Source of the DNA: an uncultured Clostridia bacterium
GTDB taxonomy: Bacteria; Bacillota; Clostridia; Oscillospirales; Oscillospiraceae
Assembly (NCBI GenBank): GCA_947572235.1
Contig: CANPBB010000007.1
Span: 1-57,370 of the forward strand
DNA length: 57,370 nt
Direction of reading: 5' to 3'
The notes beneath the pieces were generated by a model. It saw only the letters and a list, made by a program, of their open reading frames with translations. It did not search any database and was not told the DNA's origin. Made by a program: the position numbers and the translations under genes. Positions within the stretch are counted from its first letter, which is position 1; each line of letters begins with the position of its first letter. This document shows, in pieces, positions 3,177-29,646 of this stretch.

Positions 3177-5447
3177 TCACAATTTATTCCGCTGAATCTT
3201 CCCGCTGATGGTCTTAGGCAGCTCATCCCTGAACACCACAATCCGCGGATACTTATACGGCGCGGTGTGCTTTTTGACGTAGCTCTGAATCTCTTTTTTC
3301 AGCTCCTCCGTCCCCTCCGTGCCCTTCACCAGCACAATGCTGGCCTTCACCACCTGCCCGCGGAGCTCGTCCGGGGCGGCGGACACGCCGCACTCCAATA
3401 CATACGGCAGCTCCATAATGACGCTCTCAATCTCAAAGGGCCCGATCCGGTAGCCGCTGGACTTGATCACATCGTCCCGGCGGCCCACGTACCAGAGGTA
3501 GCCGTCCTCGTCCTGCCACGCCACATCTCTTGTGTGGTACAGCCCGTCGTGCCAGACCTCCTTGGTCTGTCCCTCGTCCTGATAGTACCCGGCGAAGAGG
3601 CCGCAGGGCAGGGCGCCGTCCTTGGCCCGGATGCAGATCTCGCCGTTCTCACCGGGGGCCACCGGCTCGTCGTTCTCGTCCACCAGCACAAGGTCATAGG
3701 TGGGGATGGGTTTGCCCATGGAGCCGATCTTCTGCTTGTTGCCGATGAGGTTGCCGATGGTCAGCGTGGTCTCCGTCTGTCCGAAGCCCTCGTAGATCTG
3801 GAGCCCCGTCTGGGCCTCGAACTGGCGGAATACCTCCGGATTCAGGGCCTCGCCGGCGGTGGTGGCGTGCTTGATGCTGCTCAGGTCATACTTACTGAGA
3901 TCATCCTTGATAAACATCCGGTACATCGTCGGCGGTGCGCAGAAGGTGGTGATGTTGTACTTTTTGAACATGGGCAGGATATCCGCCGCGTCAAAGCGGT
4001 CAAAGTCGTAGGTGAATACCGCCCCCTCACACAGCCACTGGCCGTAGAGCTTGCCCCACAGGGCCTTCCCCCAGCCGGTCTCGCTGATGGTAAAGTGGAG
4101 GCCGTCGGCGTGGACGCAGTGCCAGTACTTGGCGGTGATGTAGTGCCCCAAAGCGTACTTATAGCTGTGGGCGGCGATCTTGGGATAGCCGGTGGTGCCG
4201 GAGGTGAAGAACATCAGCATGAGATCGTCCCCGCAGGGGGCGTCCTCGCCCCGGGGGAAGTGGGAGCGGTACATGGTGTACTCCTCGTCGAAGTCGTGCC
4301 ACCCCTCCCGCTGGCCGCCCACCAGGATTTTCAGCTTCAAGCTGGGACTCTCCTGCTGGGCGATATCCACCTGCTGGGCGGTGTCCCCGTTGGCGGTGCA
4401 GACGATGGCGCTGACCTCCGCGGCGTTGAAGCGGTAGGAGAAGTCGTGCTCCTGGAGCTGGTTTGTGGCGGGGATGGCGATGGCCCCCAGCTTGTGGAGC
4501 CCCAGAATGGCGAACCAGAACTGGTAGTGGCGCTTGAGCACCAGCATCACCCGATCCCCCCGCTTGATGCCCAGGGCCTTGAAGTAGTTGGCGGCCCGGC
4601 TGGAGGCCCGGGAGATATCGGAGAAGGTGAGGCGCCGCTCATTCTTGTCCCGGTCCAGATGGAGCATAGCCAGCTTCTCCGGGTACTTGGCGGCGATGGC
4701 GTCCACGCAGTCGAAGGCGAAGTTGAAGCGGTCCGCGTTGGGGAAGTCAAGGGACTGGAGTACCCCATGCTCGTCCTCCTTGGCGCTGATGAATTCCTTG
4801 CAGACGTACTCGGCGCTGGACCGGGCCTCCACGATGGAGCGGCGGACGGACATCTCCTCCGCCTTCTCCCCGGAGATAACCACCGCGCAGAACACGCAGG
4901 GCCGGCCGCCTACGGCGATCATGCCGTGGGGGGTGGAGGAGTTGTAGAGGATGCTGTCCCCCTCGCCGAGGATCTCCGTATTCTCCCCCACCTGCACCTT
5001 CAGCTGACCGGAGAGGATGATGTCGAACTCCTGCCCGGCGTGTGTGGTGAGATGGATGGGCATCCGCTGCTGGGCCTCGTCGTACTCATAGGTACAGTAG
5101 TAGGGCTCCGCCAGCTTGTTGCGGAAGAAGGGGGCCAGGTTGGAGATCTCGATGCCCTCCTCCTTGGCGGTCTGCTGGCCCTCTCCCCGGCGGGTGACGG
5201 TGTAGCTGCGCAGATTGGCGCTGTGGCCCTCCAGCAGGTCGGTGATGCCGATACCGAAGGCCAGCGCACACTTGTGGATGAAGGTGAAGGGCAGGTCCGC
5301 CCGGCCGGCCTCATAGGTCAAGTACTCGGCCATGGTGGTGTCGGTTTTCTGGGACATCTCCTCCTCGGTGAAGCCGCAGATCCCCCGCATCTCCTTGATC
5401 CGGAAGGCCACCTCGGCCAGCTGATTTGCCACGCGGTTGGGTTCCAT
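3177..5447 (-). CDS. XRE-cupin-acyl-CoA synthetase (AMP-binding), complete
   Basis: A 756-residue protein with the same three-part plan as its neighbour: XRE-type HTH (about 10-70), cupin (about 110-190, with ILYNSSTPHGMIAVGG), and an AMP-forming acyl-CoA synthetase domain (about 240-756). Visible motifs are FFTSGTTGYPK (ATP-binding P-loop), YEGFGQTETT, YHTRDVAW, the hinge DDVIKSSGYRIGPFE, and the C-terminal KTISGKIQRN carrying the catalytic Lys. The expected reaction is acid + ATP + CoA to acyl-CoA + AMP + PPi in the cytoplasm. The ATG at 5447 lies 10 nt after AAGGAGG. It is strongly similar to the upstream paralogue but has its own promoter and T-box leader. The substrate is unknown. Confidence 0.93.
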   Translation of the reverse strand: MEPNRVANQLAEVAFRIKEMRGICGFTEEEMSQKTDTTMAEYLTYEAGRADLPFTFIHKCALAFGIGITDLLEGHSANLRSYTVTRRGEGQQTAKEEGIEISNLAPFFRNKLAEPYYCTYEYDEAQQRMPIHLTTHAGQEFDIILSGQLKVQVGENTEILGEGDSILYNSSTPHGMIAVGGRPCVFCAVVISGEKAEEMSVRRSIVEARSSAEYVCKEFISAKEDEHGVLQSLDFPNADRFNFAFDCVDAIAAKYPEKLAMLHLDRDKNERRLTFSDISRASSRAANYFKALGIKRGDRVMLVLKRHYQFWFAILGLHKLGAIAIPATNQLQEHDFSYRFNAAEVSAIVCTANGDTAQQVDIAQQESPSLKLKILVGGQREGWHDFDEEYTMYRSHFPRGEDAPCGDDLMLMFFTSGTTGYPKIAAHSYKYALGHYITAKYWHCVHADGLHFTISETGWGKALWGKLYGQWLCEGAVFTYDFDRFDAADILPMFKKYNITTFCAPPTMYRMFIKDDLSKYDLSSIKHATTAGEALNPEVFRQFEAQTGLQIYEGFGQTETTLTIGNLIGNKQKIGSMGKPIPTYDLVLVDENDEPVAPGENGEICIRAKDGALPCGLFAGYYQDEGQTKEVWHDGLYHTRDVAWQDEDGYLWYVGRRDDVIKSSGYRIGPFEIESVIMELPYVLECGVSAAPDELRGQVVKASIVLVKGTEGTEELKKEIQSYVKKHTAPYKYPRIVVFRDELPKTISGKIQRNKL

Positions 5448-5514: not shown

Positions 5515-5810
5515 AACAAAAACCCGTCCCAAAGATTTCTCTTTGAGACGAGTTCATAACAACAGCTATGTACCCGCGGTACCACTCAAATTGCACCCCA
5601 AAGGGGTGCCGCTCCTCGGGCTCCAGCAAGCCCTATGCCTTGACGCGGCAGTCACGGAAGCATCCTACTTGGCGCGCCGCGCGGTTCGGACCTTCAGCTC
5701 GGAAGGGATAGGACCTTGGACGCCGCCGCCGCCGGGTTTCCACCATCCCCAGCTCTCTGTACGCGCACTGCGCCCGTCCGTCTTCGTCATCGCTTTTTCT
5801 GATTCAGTTC
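5515..5810 (-). promoter_or_regulatory. T-box riboswitch leader of the second acyl-CoA synthetase
   Basis: The T-box sequence GAGTGGTACCGCGGGT lies at 5587-5572 and the terminator (CGTCTCAAAGAG / CTTTGGGACGGG with a T-run) at about 5550-5515. The Stem I region has the AGAGAG bulge, a GAUGGUG distal loop motif and the GACGAAGAC start. The 3' specifier-loop strand reads CCUAUCC before CUUCCGAG, so the specifier could be AUC (Ile, 5709-5707) or UAU (Tyr, 5710-5708). The layout matches the leader at 2075-2385 but the Stem I sequences differ, so the two units may answer to different tRNAs. Confidence 0.92.
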
Positions 5811-26387: not shown

Positions 26388-26918
26388 ATGGAGTACCACA
26401 GGACGTTCCAGATCGGCCAGCAGGAGGCCATGGACTTCTACCTCTATCAAGCCCTCCGCCACCGCTCGCTGGGGGCTGTGGGCTTCTGCGCGGTGGGGCT
26501 TTTGATCTGCTGGCTCTACTCCGCTCAGGCGCAGAGGTCCCCCGTCTCCTTTGCCGTCTCCATGGTGGTCACCTTTATAGCCGTGCTGGCGGCGATTTTA
26601 GGCGGCTACTACTTCACTCTCCGAAACAAGGTCCGCGCCGCCATCCGCCGGCGGGGCCGGGAGCGGTACCCGCAGGAGATCCTGATCAACGGCTTCGGCC
26701 TGCGCTGTACCGCCAGCGGCCGGGAGGTGAAGGTGGCCTTTGAGAAGATCCGTGAGATTCGGGAGACCAAGAGGGCGGTGTATATCTACATGACGGAGAA
26801 CGACGCCTGGATTCTCCCCAAGGCCCAGATGGAGGACCCGGCGGCGGAGGCCGCCAAGCTCCGGGAGATCTTCGGCATGGTGATCGAGTCCCAGCGGCTG
26901 CACCTGCGGAAGGGGTAG
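26388..26918 (+). CDS. YcxB-like membrane protein
   Basis: A 176-residue protein with a short cytoplasmic N-terminus, two membrane helices (about 29-46 and 52-75) and a C-terminal soluble domain with a beta-rich YcxB-type pattern (INGFGLRC..., VAFEKIREIRETKRAVYIYMTENDAWILPKAQM). The family is widespread in Firmicutes and of unknown function. It lies directly behind cdd with GGGAGGGCACGGG as ribosome site. Confidence 0.8.
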   Translation: MEYHRTFQIGQQEAMDFYLYQALRHRSLGAVGFCAVGLLICWLYSAQAQRSPVSFAVSMVVTFIAVLAAILGGYYFTLRNKVRAAIRRRGRERYPQEILINGFGLRCTASGREVKVAFEKIREIRETKRAVYIYMTENDAWILPKAQMEDPAAEAAKLREIFGMVIESQRLHLRKG

Positions 26919-27022
26919 GGCGGTACGCGCGGGGGCGCGGCGGCCTTTTGCGGCCCTAAGGTACCGGCGGTGATTCGGGAAATTTTTGAAGGAAGCGTCT
27001 TGATCGAAGGTTTTAACGTGTA
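26919..27022. other. Spacer between the YcxB-like gene and the MITE
   Basis: No gene recognised. Short GC-rich palindromes (about 26927-26955) may end the cdd transcript. Confidence 0.3.
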
Positions 27023-27184
27023 AGAGCCTGTTTAATATCTCGACGTGTATGGATTGGCGAGTGGATTTTTTGCCCTGCAAGGCAAAAATCCGCAGGCATC
27101 CTGACGGATGGCAAGGATTTTTAACGCAGTCAGGGCGGAAAATACGCCGCCAAGACATGCGCAGGGAGATTTTAAACAGGCTCT
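27023..27184. mobile_element. MITE-like element with 19-bp terminal inverted repeats
   Basis: The left end AGAGCCTGTTTAATATCTC (27023-27041) is matched by the reverse complement of the right end, AGAGCCTGTTTAAAATCTC (27184-27166), with one mismatch in 19. The 162-bp interior has no reading frame of note but folds into hairpins such as TTTTTGCC / GGCAAAAA. Size, long terminal inverted repeats and lack of genes are what a miniature inverted-repeat transposable element looks like. No clear target duplication is visible. Confidence 0.7.
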
Positions 27185-27236
27185 AAGGGCGCACACAGCG
27201 CAGACGCCAACGGCCGCACTGTGTGCGCCCTTACAG
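27184..27236. repeat. Inverted repeat, 15-bp perfect arms
   Basis: TAAGGGCGCACACAG and CTGTGTGCGCCCTTA form perfect arms abutting the MITE. The arm resembles the GTAGGGGCGCACA repeats at 2891-2969, so it probably belongs to the same dispersed family. The following 27237-27440 contains no recognised gene. Confidence 0.6.
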
Positions 27237-27444
27237 GGTGATTTATGGGGGCATCCTATTGGGCGGGGGACAGGCAGTGAGGACACCGGTTTCCGCGGGC
27301 GGGTTGTTGCCTGCGCAAAATCCCTCCGCCGTGCGCCGCAGCCGGACGGCCCAGCGCGGCGGCTGCCGGCAGGGCGGGCGGGCGCGGCGTGTCCCTGCCG
27401 GTTAAAATCTGTTGGGGGGACGCGTCTAAGGCCCAACAATTTCC

Positions 27445-27473
27445 TTGACAAAGGTGCGGAAAAGGGGTATCCT
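27445..27473 (+). promoter_or_regulatory. metG: Promoter of the metG leader
   Basis: TTGACA (27445-27450), a 17-bp spacer and TATCCT (27468-27473). Predicted start near 27480, about 26 nt before the leader peptide ATG. Confidence 0.8.
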
Positions 27474-27493
27474 AAGAAAAAGATTCTTTGGAG

Positions 27494-27644
27494 GAGGGCA
27501 GGACGATGGGAAATTCCCGCTGCATGTGCATGATGATGCTTAGGACTGCCCTCAGCCACCTTTGAGGTCCGGTCCCGGCGTCTGTGCCCGGGAGGTCCCC
27601 AGCGGTTGACGGCAGTCTGATCCGTTCAGGCTGCTTTTTCTTTT
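27494..27644 (+). promoter_or_regulatory. Ribosome-mediated attenuator of metG (protector, antiterminator, terminator)
   Basis: Three mutually exclusive pairings can be read. (1) GAGGGCAG at 27494-27501 pairs with CTGCCCTC at 27546-27553 and would hide the leader peptide's ribosome site. (2) 27543-27557, inside the leader peptide's last codons, pairs with 27604-27618 over 15 positions with a single C-C mismatch and two or three G-U pairs; this is the antiterminator. (3) GCAGTCTGA at 27612-27620 pairs with TCAGGCTGC at 27626-27634 in a 9-bp hairpin followed by TTTTTCTTTT, an intrinsic terminator. Pairing 2 consumes the 5' arm of pairing 3. This logic parallels the trp and his attenuators. Confidence 0.82.
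27506..27565 (+). CDS. Met-rich leader peptide of metG
   Basis: A 19-codon frame MGNSRCMCMMMLRTALSHL, with GGAGGAGGG directly upstream at a proper distance (27490-27498). After the start there are four Met codons in five positions (codons 7, 9, 10 and 11) interspersed with Cys. The frame lies between a good promoter and a terminator, in front of the methionyl-tRNA synthetase gene. This is what an attenuator leader peptide for methionine should look like: ribosome stalling at ATG codons when Met-tRNA is short would favour the antiterminator. Too short for standard gene callers. Confidence 0.85.
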   Translation: MGNSRCMCMMMLRTALSHL

Positions 27645-27678
27645 GCCCACCATCATTTTTCTTAGGAGGACTTGCCCC

Positions 27679-29646
27679 ATGAGCCAGAAATACTATATCA
27701 CCACACCCATCTACTACCCCTCGGACAAGCTCCACATCGGCCACACCTACTGCACCGTGGCCACCGACGCCCTGGCCCGGTACCACCGGCTGAGGGGGGA
27801 GGAGGTCATGTTCCTCACCGGCACCGACGAGCACGGCCAGAAGATCGAGGACAAGGCCAAGGAGGCCGGCGTCTCCCCCAAGGAGTACGTGGATAAGATC
27901 GTGGAGGGGCCGGGGGGCGTTCTGGATCTGTGGAAGCTGATGAACATCTCCAACGACCGCTTCATCCGCACCACCGACGACTACCACGTCTCCGCCATCC
28001 AGAGGATTTTTAAGAAGCTTTACGACAAGGGCGACATCTACAAGGGCACGTATAAGGGCAAATACTGCAAGCCCTGCGAGAGCTTTTGGACGGAGAGCCA
28101 GCTGAAGGACGGCTGCTGTCCCGACTGCGGGCGGCCGGTTGCTGACGCGGAGGAGGAGGCCTACTTCTTCCGGCTCTCCAAGTATGCCGACAGGATTCAG
28201 GACCTTCTGGAAAACACCGATTTCCTACAGCCCCGGAGCCGGGTGAATGAGATGGTGAACAACTTCATTAAGCCCGGTCTGGAGGACCTGTGCGTCTCCC
28301 GCACCTCCTTCACCTGGGGCGTGCCGGTGGACTTTGACCCTAAGCACGTGGTCTATGTGTGGATTGACGCCCTCTCCAACTATATCACCGCCCTGGGGTA
28401 TGAAAACGACAGGTATGACGACTACGGCAAGGGCTGGTGGCCCGGGGTGAATATTGTGGGCAAGGAGATTGTCCGCTTCCACTCCATCATCTGGCCCGCC
28501 ATGCTCATGAGCTTAGGCGAGCCTCTGCCCAAGAAGGTCTTTGGACACGGCTGGCTGCTGCTGGACGGGGGCAAGATGTCCAAGTCCAAGGGCAATGTGG
28601 TGGATCCCTATATTCTGGCGGAACAGTTCGGTGTGGACGCCCTGCGCTTCTTCCTTCTGCGCACCTTCCCCTTCGGGTCCGACGGCAACTTCTCCAACGA
28701 GCTTTTGATCCAGACCATCAACACGGATTTGGCCAACGATCTGGGGAATTTGGTCAGCCGCACCACCGCCATGGCGGGGAAGTATTTTGGCGGCACCCTC
28801 CCCGCGGCGCGGCGCTATGAGAAGGAGAAGGATGACGAGCTGGTGTCTATGGTGCTGGGCCTCCGGGATCAGTACGAGGAGGCGATGGAGCACTATGCCC
28901 CCCACAAGGCGCTGGAGGAGGTCTTTAAGGTTATCCAGCGCTCCAACAAGTATATTGATGAGAATATGCCCTGGGCTCTGGCCAAGGACATGGAGGCCAA
29001 CGGGGCCCGGCTGGCCAGCGTCCTCTATCACCTGCTGGAGGCCACGCGGGTCTGCGGCATCCTGCTGACGCCTTTTATGCCCGGGAGCATGGACAAGCTC
29101 TTTGATCAGATCGGCGCGGGGGAGAACTGCCGGACCTGGCCCAGCGCCAAGATGTGGGCGGCGCTGGACGCGGAGGTGAGCGTCACCAAGGGGGAGAATC
29201 TGTTCCCCCGTATCGACATGGAGGCGGCGCTGGAGAAGCTGGAGGCCGCGGAGGCGGAGGCCAAAAGGGCCGCTCTGCCGGATATCGAGATCGAGCCTCA
29301 GACGGAGGAGAAGGTGGACTTTGAGACCTTCTGCAAGTCTGACTTCCGGGCGGTGAAGGTGAAGGCCTGCGAGGCGGTGAAGAAGAGCGCCAAGCTGCTG
29401 CGGTTCACCCTGGACGACGGCACCGGCGTGGACCGGCAGATCCTATCCGGCATCCACCAGTGGTATGAGCCGGAGGACCTTGTGGGCAGGACGCTGGTGG
29501 CTATCGTGAATCTGCCGCCGCGGAAGATGATGGGGCTGGAGAGCAATGGGATGATTATCTCCGCCGTCCACACCGAGAAGGGGGAGGAGAGCCTGCACCT
29601 GATTATGATTGACGACGCGATCCCGGCGGGGGCGAAGCTGTGCTGA
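27679..29646 (+). CDS. metG: Methionyl-tRNA synthetase
   Basis: A 655-residue class I synthetase that charges tRNA-Met. It has the HIGH-type motif KLHIGHTYC, the zinc-knuckle region CKPCESFWTESQLKDGCCPDCG, the GWLLLDGGKMSKSKGNVVDP signature (KMSKS) and the anticodon-binding helical domain. The C-terminal about 110 residues form an EMAP/Trbp111-type tRNA-binding domain (VDFETFCKSDFRAVKVKACEAV ... LPPRKMMGLESNGMI). The ATG at 27679 follows AGGAGG. Expression appears governed by the Met-leader attenuator just upstream. A terminator follows. Confidence 0.97.
   Translation: MSQKYYITTPIYYPSDKLHIGHTYCTVATDALARYHRLRGEEVMFLTGTDEHGQKIEDKAKEAGVSPKEYVDKIVEGPGGVLDLWKLMNISNDRFIRTTDDYHVSAIQRIFKKLYDKGDIYKGTYKGKYCKPCESFWTESQLKDGCCPDCGRPVADAEEEAYFFRLSKYADRIQDLLENTDFLQPRSRVNEMVNNFIKPGLEDLCVSRTSFTWGVPVDFDPKHVVYVWIDALSNYITALGYENDRYDDYGKGWWPGVNIVGKEIVRFHSIIWPAMLMSLGEPLPKKVFGHGWLLLDGGKMSKSKGNVVDPYILAEQFGVDALRFFLLRTFPFGSDGNFSNELLIQTINTDLANDLGNLVSRTTAMAGKYFGGTLPAARRYEKEKDDELVSMVLGLRDQYEEAMEHYAPHKALEEVFKVIQRSNKYIDENMPWALAKDMEANGARLASVLYHLLEATRVCGILLTPFMPGSMDKLFDQIGAGENCRTWPSAKMWAALDAEVSVTKGENLFPRIDMEAALEKLEAAEAEAKRAALPDIEIEPQTEEKVDFETFCKSDFRAVKVKACEAVKKSAKLLRFTLDDGTGVDRQILSGIHQWYEPEDLVGRTLVAIVNLPPRKMMGLESNGMIISAVHTEKGEESLHLIMIDDAIPAGAKLC

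Follow-up and report, generated by a model that had tools for sequence, protein, structure and literature searches.

A candidate methionine leader-peptide attenuator upstream of the methionyl-tRNA synthetase gene in an uncultured Oscillospiraceae bacterium, and related Met-rich leaders at other methionine genes

Ribosome-mediated transcription attenuators control the trp, his, thr, and ilv operons in Proteobacteria, and in E. coli the synthetase genes pheST stand under the leader peptide pheM. T-boxes and S-adenosylmethionine (SAM) riboswitches, which bind tRNA or SAM directly and without translation, also control methionine genes in Firmicutes, and T-boxes or T-box motifs precede some of the metG and metY orthologues compared here. 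We describe the leader of metG, encoding methionyl-tRNA synthetase, in a stretch of 57,370 nucleotides (nt; hereafter the window) from an uncultured Clostridia bacterium of the family Oscillospiraceae (assembly GCA_947572235.1, contig CANPBB010000007.1). This leader likely acts as a ribosome-mediated transcription attenuator that responds to a shortage of Met-tRNA, and metG itself appears best explained as a late recruit to a wider methionine regulon of Met-rich leaders. The parts of the leader, their conservation and co-variation, the existence of a paralogous copy, and the association of such leaders with methionine genes are computational observations.

The attenuation principle is described in PMC8079986, and several synthetase genes are reported under leader peptides: leuS and trpS in Streptomyces (PMC1262725), and alaS, thrS, leuS, and trpS in S. 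lividans (PMC8079986). Like pheST, these genes share with the metG described here a leader that encodes their own amino acid; metG is not among the genes described in the accessible portions of these sources. His leader peptides take the place of T-boxes at hisZ/hisS* in bacilli (PMC2965389), and a Leu leader peptide precedes ilv-leu of S. aureus (PMC5794164). These are likewise classical systems of Firmicutes, but they concern other amino acids and lineages, and no Met leader appears in the available parts of the two papers. A survey of Actinobacteria found methionine operons without conserved RNA structure, as far as its accessible text goes (PMC1262725). Among the open-access literature listed, no description of a Met leader attenuator in Firmicutes was found, the nearest case being the metL leader peptide of Streptomyces lividans, MSTTSDRTPATEATTTPGARCMCRRMCAF, which lies before metNIQ on a leaderless transcript and for which the accessible part of the report gives the typical Rho-independent terminator structure as missing (PMC8079986). 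The metG leader shares with the trp, his, thr, and ilv attenuators a short open reading frame (ORF) with control codons, three alternative pairings of four segments (1:2, the protector; 2:3, the antiterminator; 3:4, the terminator), an intrinsic terminator, and a cognate downstream gene; it differs in its control residue, Met, which is also the initiating residue, in its Clostridia host, and in its target. The proposed mechanism is trp/his-like; new are the control amino acid, metG as a target, the regulon, and a cassette that appears to have been copied.

All features of the leader lie on the forward strand. A sigma-70-type promoter, TTGACA-17-TATCCT (27445..27473; consensus score 10/12), is followed by the Shine-Dalgarno (SD) region of the leader peptide, GGAGGAGGG (27490..27498), and by a 19-codon ORF, MGNSRCMCMMMLRTALSHL (27506..27565), with ATG at 27506 and TGA at 27563-27565. 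Met occupies codons 7, 9, 10, and 11 and Cys codon 8, the control codons Met-Cys-Met-Met-Met spanning 27524..27538; both the promoter and the four Met codons at positions 7-11 were found as the initial annotation of this DNA had read them. Segment 1, the protector strand (GAGGGCAG, 27494..27501), overlaps the SD and forms eight perfect pairs with 27546-27553 (CTGCCCTC). That partner lies within segment 2 (27543..27557, delimited by pairing tests), which begins 4 nt past the last Met codon and is also the 5' strand of the antiterminator. The 3' strand, segment 3 (27604..27618, likewise from pairing tests), overlaps the 5' arm of the terminator, and a G+C-rich hairpin with approximate limits 27566..27598 (RNAfold) separates the two segments. 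The 2:3 pairing extends over 15 positions, among them a single C.C mismatch and two G.U pairs, as had been claimed. The intrinsic terminator (27611..27635), delimited by a terminator scan and helix conservation, has arms 27611-27620/27626-27635, a loop of 5, and then T5CT4 (T-tract TTTTTCTTTT, 27635..27644). The stem and T-run had been recognized earlier, but the stem has ten pairs and not nine, the outermost G.U pair having been omitted. The ribosome binding site AGGAGG (27664..27669) and metG (27679..29646; 655 amino acids; NF008900, TIGR00398, PF09334) follow, the product scoring 882 bits against NF008900 with a cut-off of 598. The sequence confirms a promoter, an SD, a 19-codon ORF, mutually exclusive 1:2, 2:3, and 3:4 pairings, and a terminator in front of metG, and the leader seems to have, the protector aside, all those sequence-level features of a trp/his-type attenuator that were tested.

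The metG leader ORF is the sole one on both strands of the window to combine an SD, a length of 8-45 residues, at least three Met in six codons, and a hairpin with a T-run within 200 nt. Not one of 1000 shuffles of segment 2 pairs equally well with segment 3, and 8/1000 do so for the protector. Promoter sites as good as that at 27445-27473 average 0.5 in the shuffled region. The terminator alone is not significant, since the region 26500-28200 holds one terminator-like site and its shuffles 1.7 on average; significance rests on the combination of parts and on their conservation.

In the proposed mechanism, RNA polymerase would start near 27480 and a ribosome would begin the leader peptide. When charged Met-tRNA is plentiful, this ribosome would run on to the stop codon and cover segment 2, segment 3 would be free, and 3:4 would terminate transcription before metG. 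With Met-tRNA short, it would wait at Met7-Met11 and cover segment 1, segment 2 would be free, and 2:3 would form before segment 4 is made, allowing metG to be transcribed. In the absence of translation, the 1:2 protector would favour termination. Translation and stalling on the metG leader, as well as the direction and the signal of its response, are what we infer.

A search of the source genome (G000) with the leader DNA turned up a further copy on a different contig, with 79% identity across 162 nt. This paralogue precedes metY (O-acetylhomoserine sulfhydrylase, TIGR01326), and metA follows metY there and at the other five genus loci tested (6/6). The alignment of the metG and metY cassettes spans promoter, leader, terminator, and ribosome binding site, and a promoter stretch like that of the metG leader also stands 5' of the metY leaders in G000, the sister genome G001, and G004. 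Type-A leaders are present in 3 of the 11 genus genomes, at both metG and metY in G000 and G001 and at metY in G004. At the metG of seven further genus members, the DNA match starts from 21 nt before (L006) to 15 nt after the start codon; L006 is covered by this match alone, as its locus was not recovered in the survey of metG upstream regions. Of 80 named metG loci surveyed, five had insufficient upstream sequence; among the remaining 75, the leader was found only in L017, apparently the sister genome, and a T-box motif in four, one of them doubtful (Rfam confirms one, L037, of three submitted). Because of the paralogy and of this near-absence at the metG of relatives, the simplest reading of the metG leader is that it was copied recently from a metY leader. 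We favour, from the sequences compared, a cassette that would be at home on metY-metA and would have reached metG by copying in the lineage of G000 and G001, and in this sense we infer which copy came first.

Copying by chance, with the cassette serving metG merely as a source of promoter and its attenuation a relic without effect, would suit a leader found at metG in G000 and G001 only, as well as the decayed-looking leader (a terminator, no peptide) at metY of another genome, G081. We nevertheless hold it to be quite improbable: the G000 and G001 metG peptides differ at three N-terminal residues (3, 5, and 6), yet MCMMMLRTALSHL is unchanged, as are segments 2 and 3, and the terminator still pairs, its stem differing only by a U.G pair that has become U-A.

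At metY, Met-rich leaders extend beyond the genus. We surveyed 96 upstream regions, nine from the genus and 87 from other genera, three of them short (100-201 nt); one locus in which metY was not located (L141) was left out. Ahead of metY, an SD is combined with a Met-rich ORF and a terminator in 15/96 (9/9 in the genus, 6/87 outside), compared with 1/96 on the opposite strand and 0/96 in each of five 3-mer shuffles. The ORF filter skips true cases (L124, and L196, which was recovered as L263 by the model R2 described below), and L209 is possibly a weak inclusion. No metY match was obtained in G008 and G010. A T-box motif takes the place of the Met leader in four of the 96 regions. At six of the nine genus loci the metY leader belongs to a different, second class, for example MARTMMMEMMAMHMCSMCLSCRAHRRVQSSR (L101). 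The G000 metY leader (L098) has Tyr where the metG leader has Cys. The decayed-looking locus of G081 (L116) has a promoter like that of the metG leader, followed directly by a terminator-like hairpin, with no Met-rich ORF, and looks eroded. In two genus members (L012, L099), a long hairpin-rich insert (GCTATGCAAAAG.TATAGC ...) lies between the leader terminator and the metY ribosome binding site.

Conservation of pairing was examined in ten aligned window-class leaders (two metG, eight metY) from seven genera. Paired cells amount to 87.5% for 1:2, 93.0% for 3:4, and 84.5% for 2:3, against 25-61% for slid partners, and the 2:3 pairing begins 0-3 nt past a Met run. For each helix the number of cells paired, the number of cells with two-sided change, and the covariation score exceed those of all 500 shuffles, with the caveat that kinship of the sequences can exceed shuffles without structure. 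When partners were swapped among eight leaders, 35 of 40320 permutations were as good for 2:3 and 158 of 40320 for 1:2; single leaders set against one-strand shuffles gave 0-40/1000 for 2:3 and 4-188/1000 for 1:2. The co-variation of stems proposed earlier as a check is thus positive on this wider family, not on metG alone.

The effect of a ribosome was modelled by masking it on transcripts that end before segment 4, a test of geometry and pairing, not of kinetics. In the window leader, 2:3 has 14.3, 13.8, 11.9, and 9.0 base pairs (bp) with the ribosome at Met7, 9, 10, and 11, respectively; once it is placed at the stop codon, the count is 0. The same holds for 14/14 window-class leaders, with 7-17 bp at any Met of the run and 0 bp at the stop. 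In this class the antiterminator is exclusive with the terminator, and on these truncated transcripts its 5' strand is free with the ribosome at the control codons and covered with the ribosome at the stop. The initial annotation had also placed a protector over the SD; its eight pairs stand in the sequence, but at equilibrium 1:2 is weak in 11/14 leaders, the window leader, L119, and L193 being the three in which it is substantial.

Several points weigh against an attenuator that responds to Met-tRNA. A shortage of Met is expected to lower formylmethionyl-tRNA and hence initiation on the leader itself. The absence of 2:3 at the stop is partly by construction, being due largely to the position of segment 2 inside the ORF. 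Folding of the full-length leader at equilibrium, tried as a test of the switch, gave no support: the terminator of the window leader barely depends on the ribosome, with a probability of 0.60 free, 0.54 stalled, and 0.55 at the stop. When the ribosome is moved from the stop to a stalled position, none of the 14 leaders falls further than L263 (0.97 to 0.72) and L127 (0.87 to 0.65). Since masking a stalled ribosome hardly lowers the full-length terminator, the attenuator model requires co-transcriptional order. Without a ribosome the terminator stays below 0.5 in 7/14 leaders (L102, L122, L124, L260-L263), and 2:3, not 1:2, dominates in the 13 leaders besides that of the window, at odds with termination in the absence of translation. 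Pairs with two-sided change number 4, 6, and 6 for 1:2, 3:4, and 2:3, values equalled or exceeded in 37, 16, and 87 of 500 shuffles. For further pair types the numbers are 7, 10, and 14 (299, 368, and 462 of 500). As these counts are moderately above shuffles or not above them at all, the covariation signal comes from few substitution events. Finally, the initial annotation had proposed a test of metG leaders across Oscillospiraceae and had named their loss from genomes that keep metG as grounds for rejection; read literally, this is what was found, since beyond the sister genome's one in 75 upstream regions the leader is present at none of the six genus metG loci read, and the metG genes of nearly all relatives examined go without it.

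The wider regulon was traced with three models, of which R1 and R3 use sequence only and R2, built on the ten window-class leaders, carries the 1:2 and 3:4 pairings. R2 was searched in 350 genomes of the family and 394 of the order, and added metY leaders in other genera and one metA leader. Its weak matches (E 5e-5 to 2e-3) led to metN and metQ leaders; these were retained for their Met-rich ORF, and their downstream genes were checked afterwards. In all 19 checked loci the downstream gene is a methionine gene (metY 12, metA 1, metN 3, metQ 3), with metA after metY in 10/12 of the metY loci. Fifteen of 29 inspected R2 loci had no convincing Met-rich ORF (bare terminators, chance matches, and L267 with a longer frame and scattered Met) and were not counted, and the R1 matches in G297 (L114, L115) were rejected as lying inside long open frames.

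R3 was built from 11 leaders of the second class only, and downstream genes were not part of the model. It matches 177 of the 350 family genomes at E<=0.01. Gene assignments cover the 50 best matches, nine of which are training sequences: metN follows in 24, metQ in 17, metY in 5, metA in 2, cysK in 1, and none of these in 1, and a terminator is present in 48/50. In the order, 13/394 genomes match at E<=1e-5. Eleven further order loci were read, nine of them before metQ (5), metY (3), or metN (1) and two before none; all nine belong to families other than that of the window. The Met/Cys-rich leader MNRFAMNNMVMCMPMCMCMCCCAQFCHAFSADGIGA (L316) precedes cysK (TIGR01139), which suggests that some leaders read cysteine too. 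Like the S. lividans metL peptide, with its end CMCRRMCAF, the second class consists of Met/Cys leaders, here too found before a methionine transporter; metL differs in being leaderless, in lacking, as far as the accessible part of its description goes, alternative stems and a synthetase gene, and in belonging to Actinobacteria.

It is unlikely, but conceivable, that the metG peptide itself is a nascent-chain arrest peptide or also reads Cys, so that stalling would be caused not by uncharged Met-tRNA but by the sequence of the peptide together with a small molecule (Met, SAM, or Cys). The second class gives this idea its substance: CATGTGC is invariant in its 11 aligned leaders, a Met-Cys-rich stretch followed by approximately [RC]-R-A-[HQ] recurs by eye, Cys makes up 6.5% and Met 22.7% of the residues after the start in 30 leaders, and one leader stands before cysK. 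Furthermore, an antiterminator scan of 16 leaders (13 second-class, three of the L264 type) put most above 5% of shuffles, the exceptions being L167 (2/500), L264 (19/500), and L272 (25/500), and the antiterminator of the second class is at best putative. In the window class, however, the N- and C-termini of the peptide vary while the Met run and the RNA pairing stay, Cys is missing from L098, L122, L124, L193, L262, and L263, and L098, the metY leader of the source genome, has Tyr in its place. For the metG leader we favour stalling set by uncharged Met-tRNA. A broader proposal, improbable as well, is that an undescribed Met/Cys leader regulon (metG, metY-metA, metNIQ, cysK) spans the order and partly replaces T-boxes, its second class being a sensing arrest peptide and not a gauge of uncharged Met-tRNA; if so, such a peptide would bypass the starved initiation expected under methionine shortage.

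A third leader form (MMMPK.PSRSAP; L264, L268, L270) shows the reverse of the logic expected of an attenuator, with terminator probabilities of 0.00-0.10 at the stop and 0.95-1.00 stalled. In this form the stop codon lies directly against the terminator, so that a ribosome on it would prevent termination.

Other classes of regulatory RNA were sought with Rfam. No family reaches its gathering score in the window, no match at E<=0.1 occurs in 13 leader loci including that of metG, and neither the T-box model RF00230 nor the SAM riboswitch models (RF00162 and the others in Rfam 15) match the metG leader. Matches to mir-1540 and IRES_Bip elsewhere, far under their gathering scores, were taken as chance. 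The genus does have T-boxes, 10-17 matches per genome at E<=0.001 in 11/11 members, and one SAM-I riboswitch match in 9/11, that of G000 being on a contig other than the window's. No T-box was found at metG in the nine genus genomes with metG located. Since the genus has both T-boxes and a SAM-I match, Met leaders supplement and do not replace T-boxes genome-wide. The earlier suggestion of a Met leader instead of a T-box holds in part: an attenuator architecture stands at metG in a lineage that uses T-boxes, but the leader is not general to metG.

This background bears on whether the ORF could be incidental to a translation-independent RNA element (a diverged T-box, a riboswitch, or a protein-binding RNA) or to constitutive termination. 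The presence of T-boxes and SAM-I in the lineage and the nearly identical equilibrium folds of the full-length window leader with and without a ribosome would be compatible with it. We regard it as very unlikely, however, given the lack of Rfam matches, the persistence of Met-rich frames over divergent nucleotides, the Met/Cys genes at 49/50 and 19/19 loci, and the paucity of such frames in the metY controls (1/96 on the reverse strand, 0/96 in shuffles).

Attenuation by a leader peptide does not suit Met well, since the same synthetase charges the initiator tRNA, and the chief conceptual puzzle lies in the Met-tRNA pool shared with initiation. If a Met attenuator does work, a shortage of elongator tRNA can be read while initiation continues. 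Gut Oscillospiraceae would then have a methionine regulon absent from Rfam 15, with Met leader peptides beside T-box motifs on orthologous genes inside one family, and a fresh case would be at hand of a regulatory cassette that a synthetase gene apparently acquired as a copy from a biosynthesis operon. The two leader models and lists could also help annotators to recover numerous short ORFs (about 18-40 codons) that have likely been missed.

Some minor features deserve mention. L335, whose downstream gene is outside the Met/Cys set searched and peptidase- or amidohydrolase-like by eye, combines the Met-rich leader MKICRSAMNMCSVMRMMRTMCMCMPKTRGGPGGAV and a terminator. At window positions 27023-27184, 5' of the metG cassette, an imperfect 37-nt inverted repeat, GAGCCTGTTTAA ... 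TTAAACAGGCTC, flanks 88 nt; by eye it resembles a miniature inverted-repeat transposable element or a repetitive extragenic palindromic sequence, and among the fetched loci its ends occur only in this place. Within positions 1-40000 of the window, T-boxes were detected only at 2109-2365 and 5541-5799, both on the reverse strand (83 and 66 bits; gathering score 93). Each of these T-box leaders precedes an ORF resembling acyl-CoA ligases (3-2048 and 3177-5447), and both ORFs carry about 230 additional N-terminal residues.

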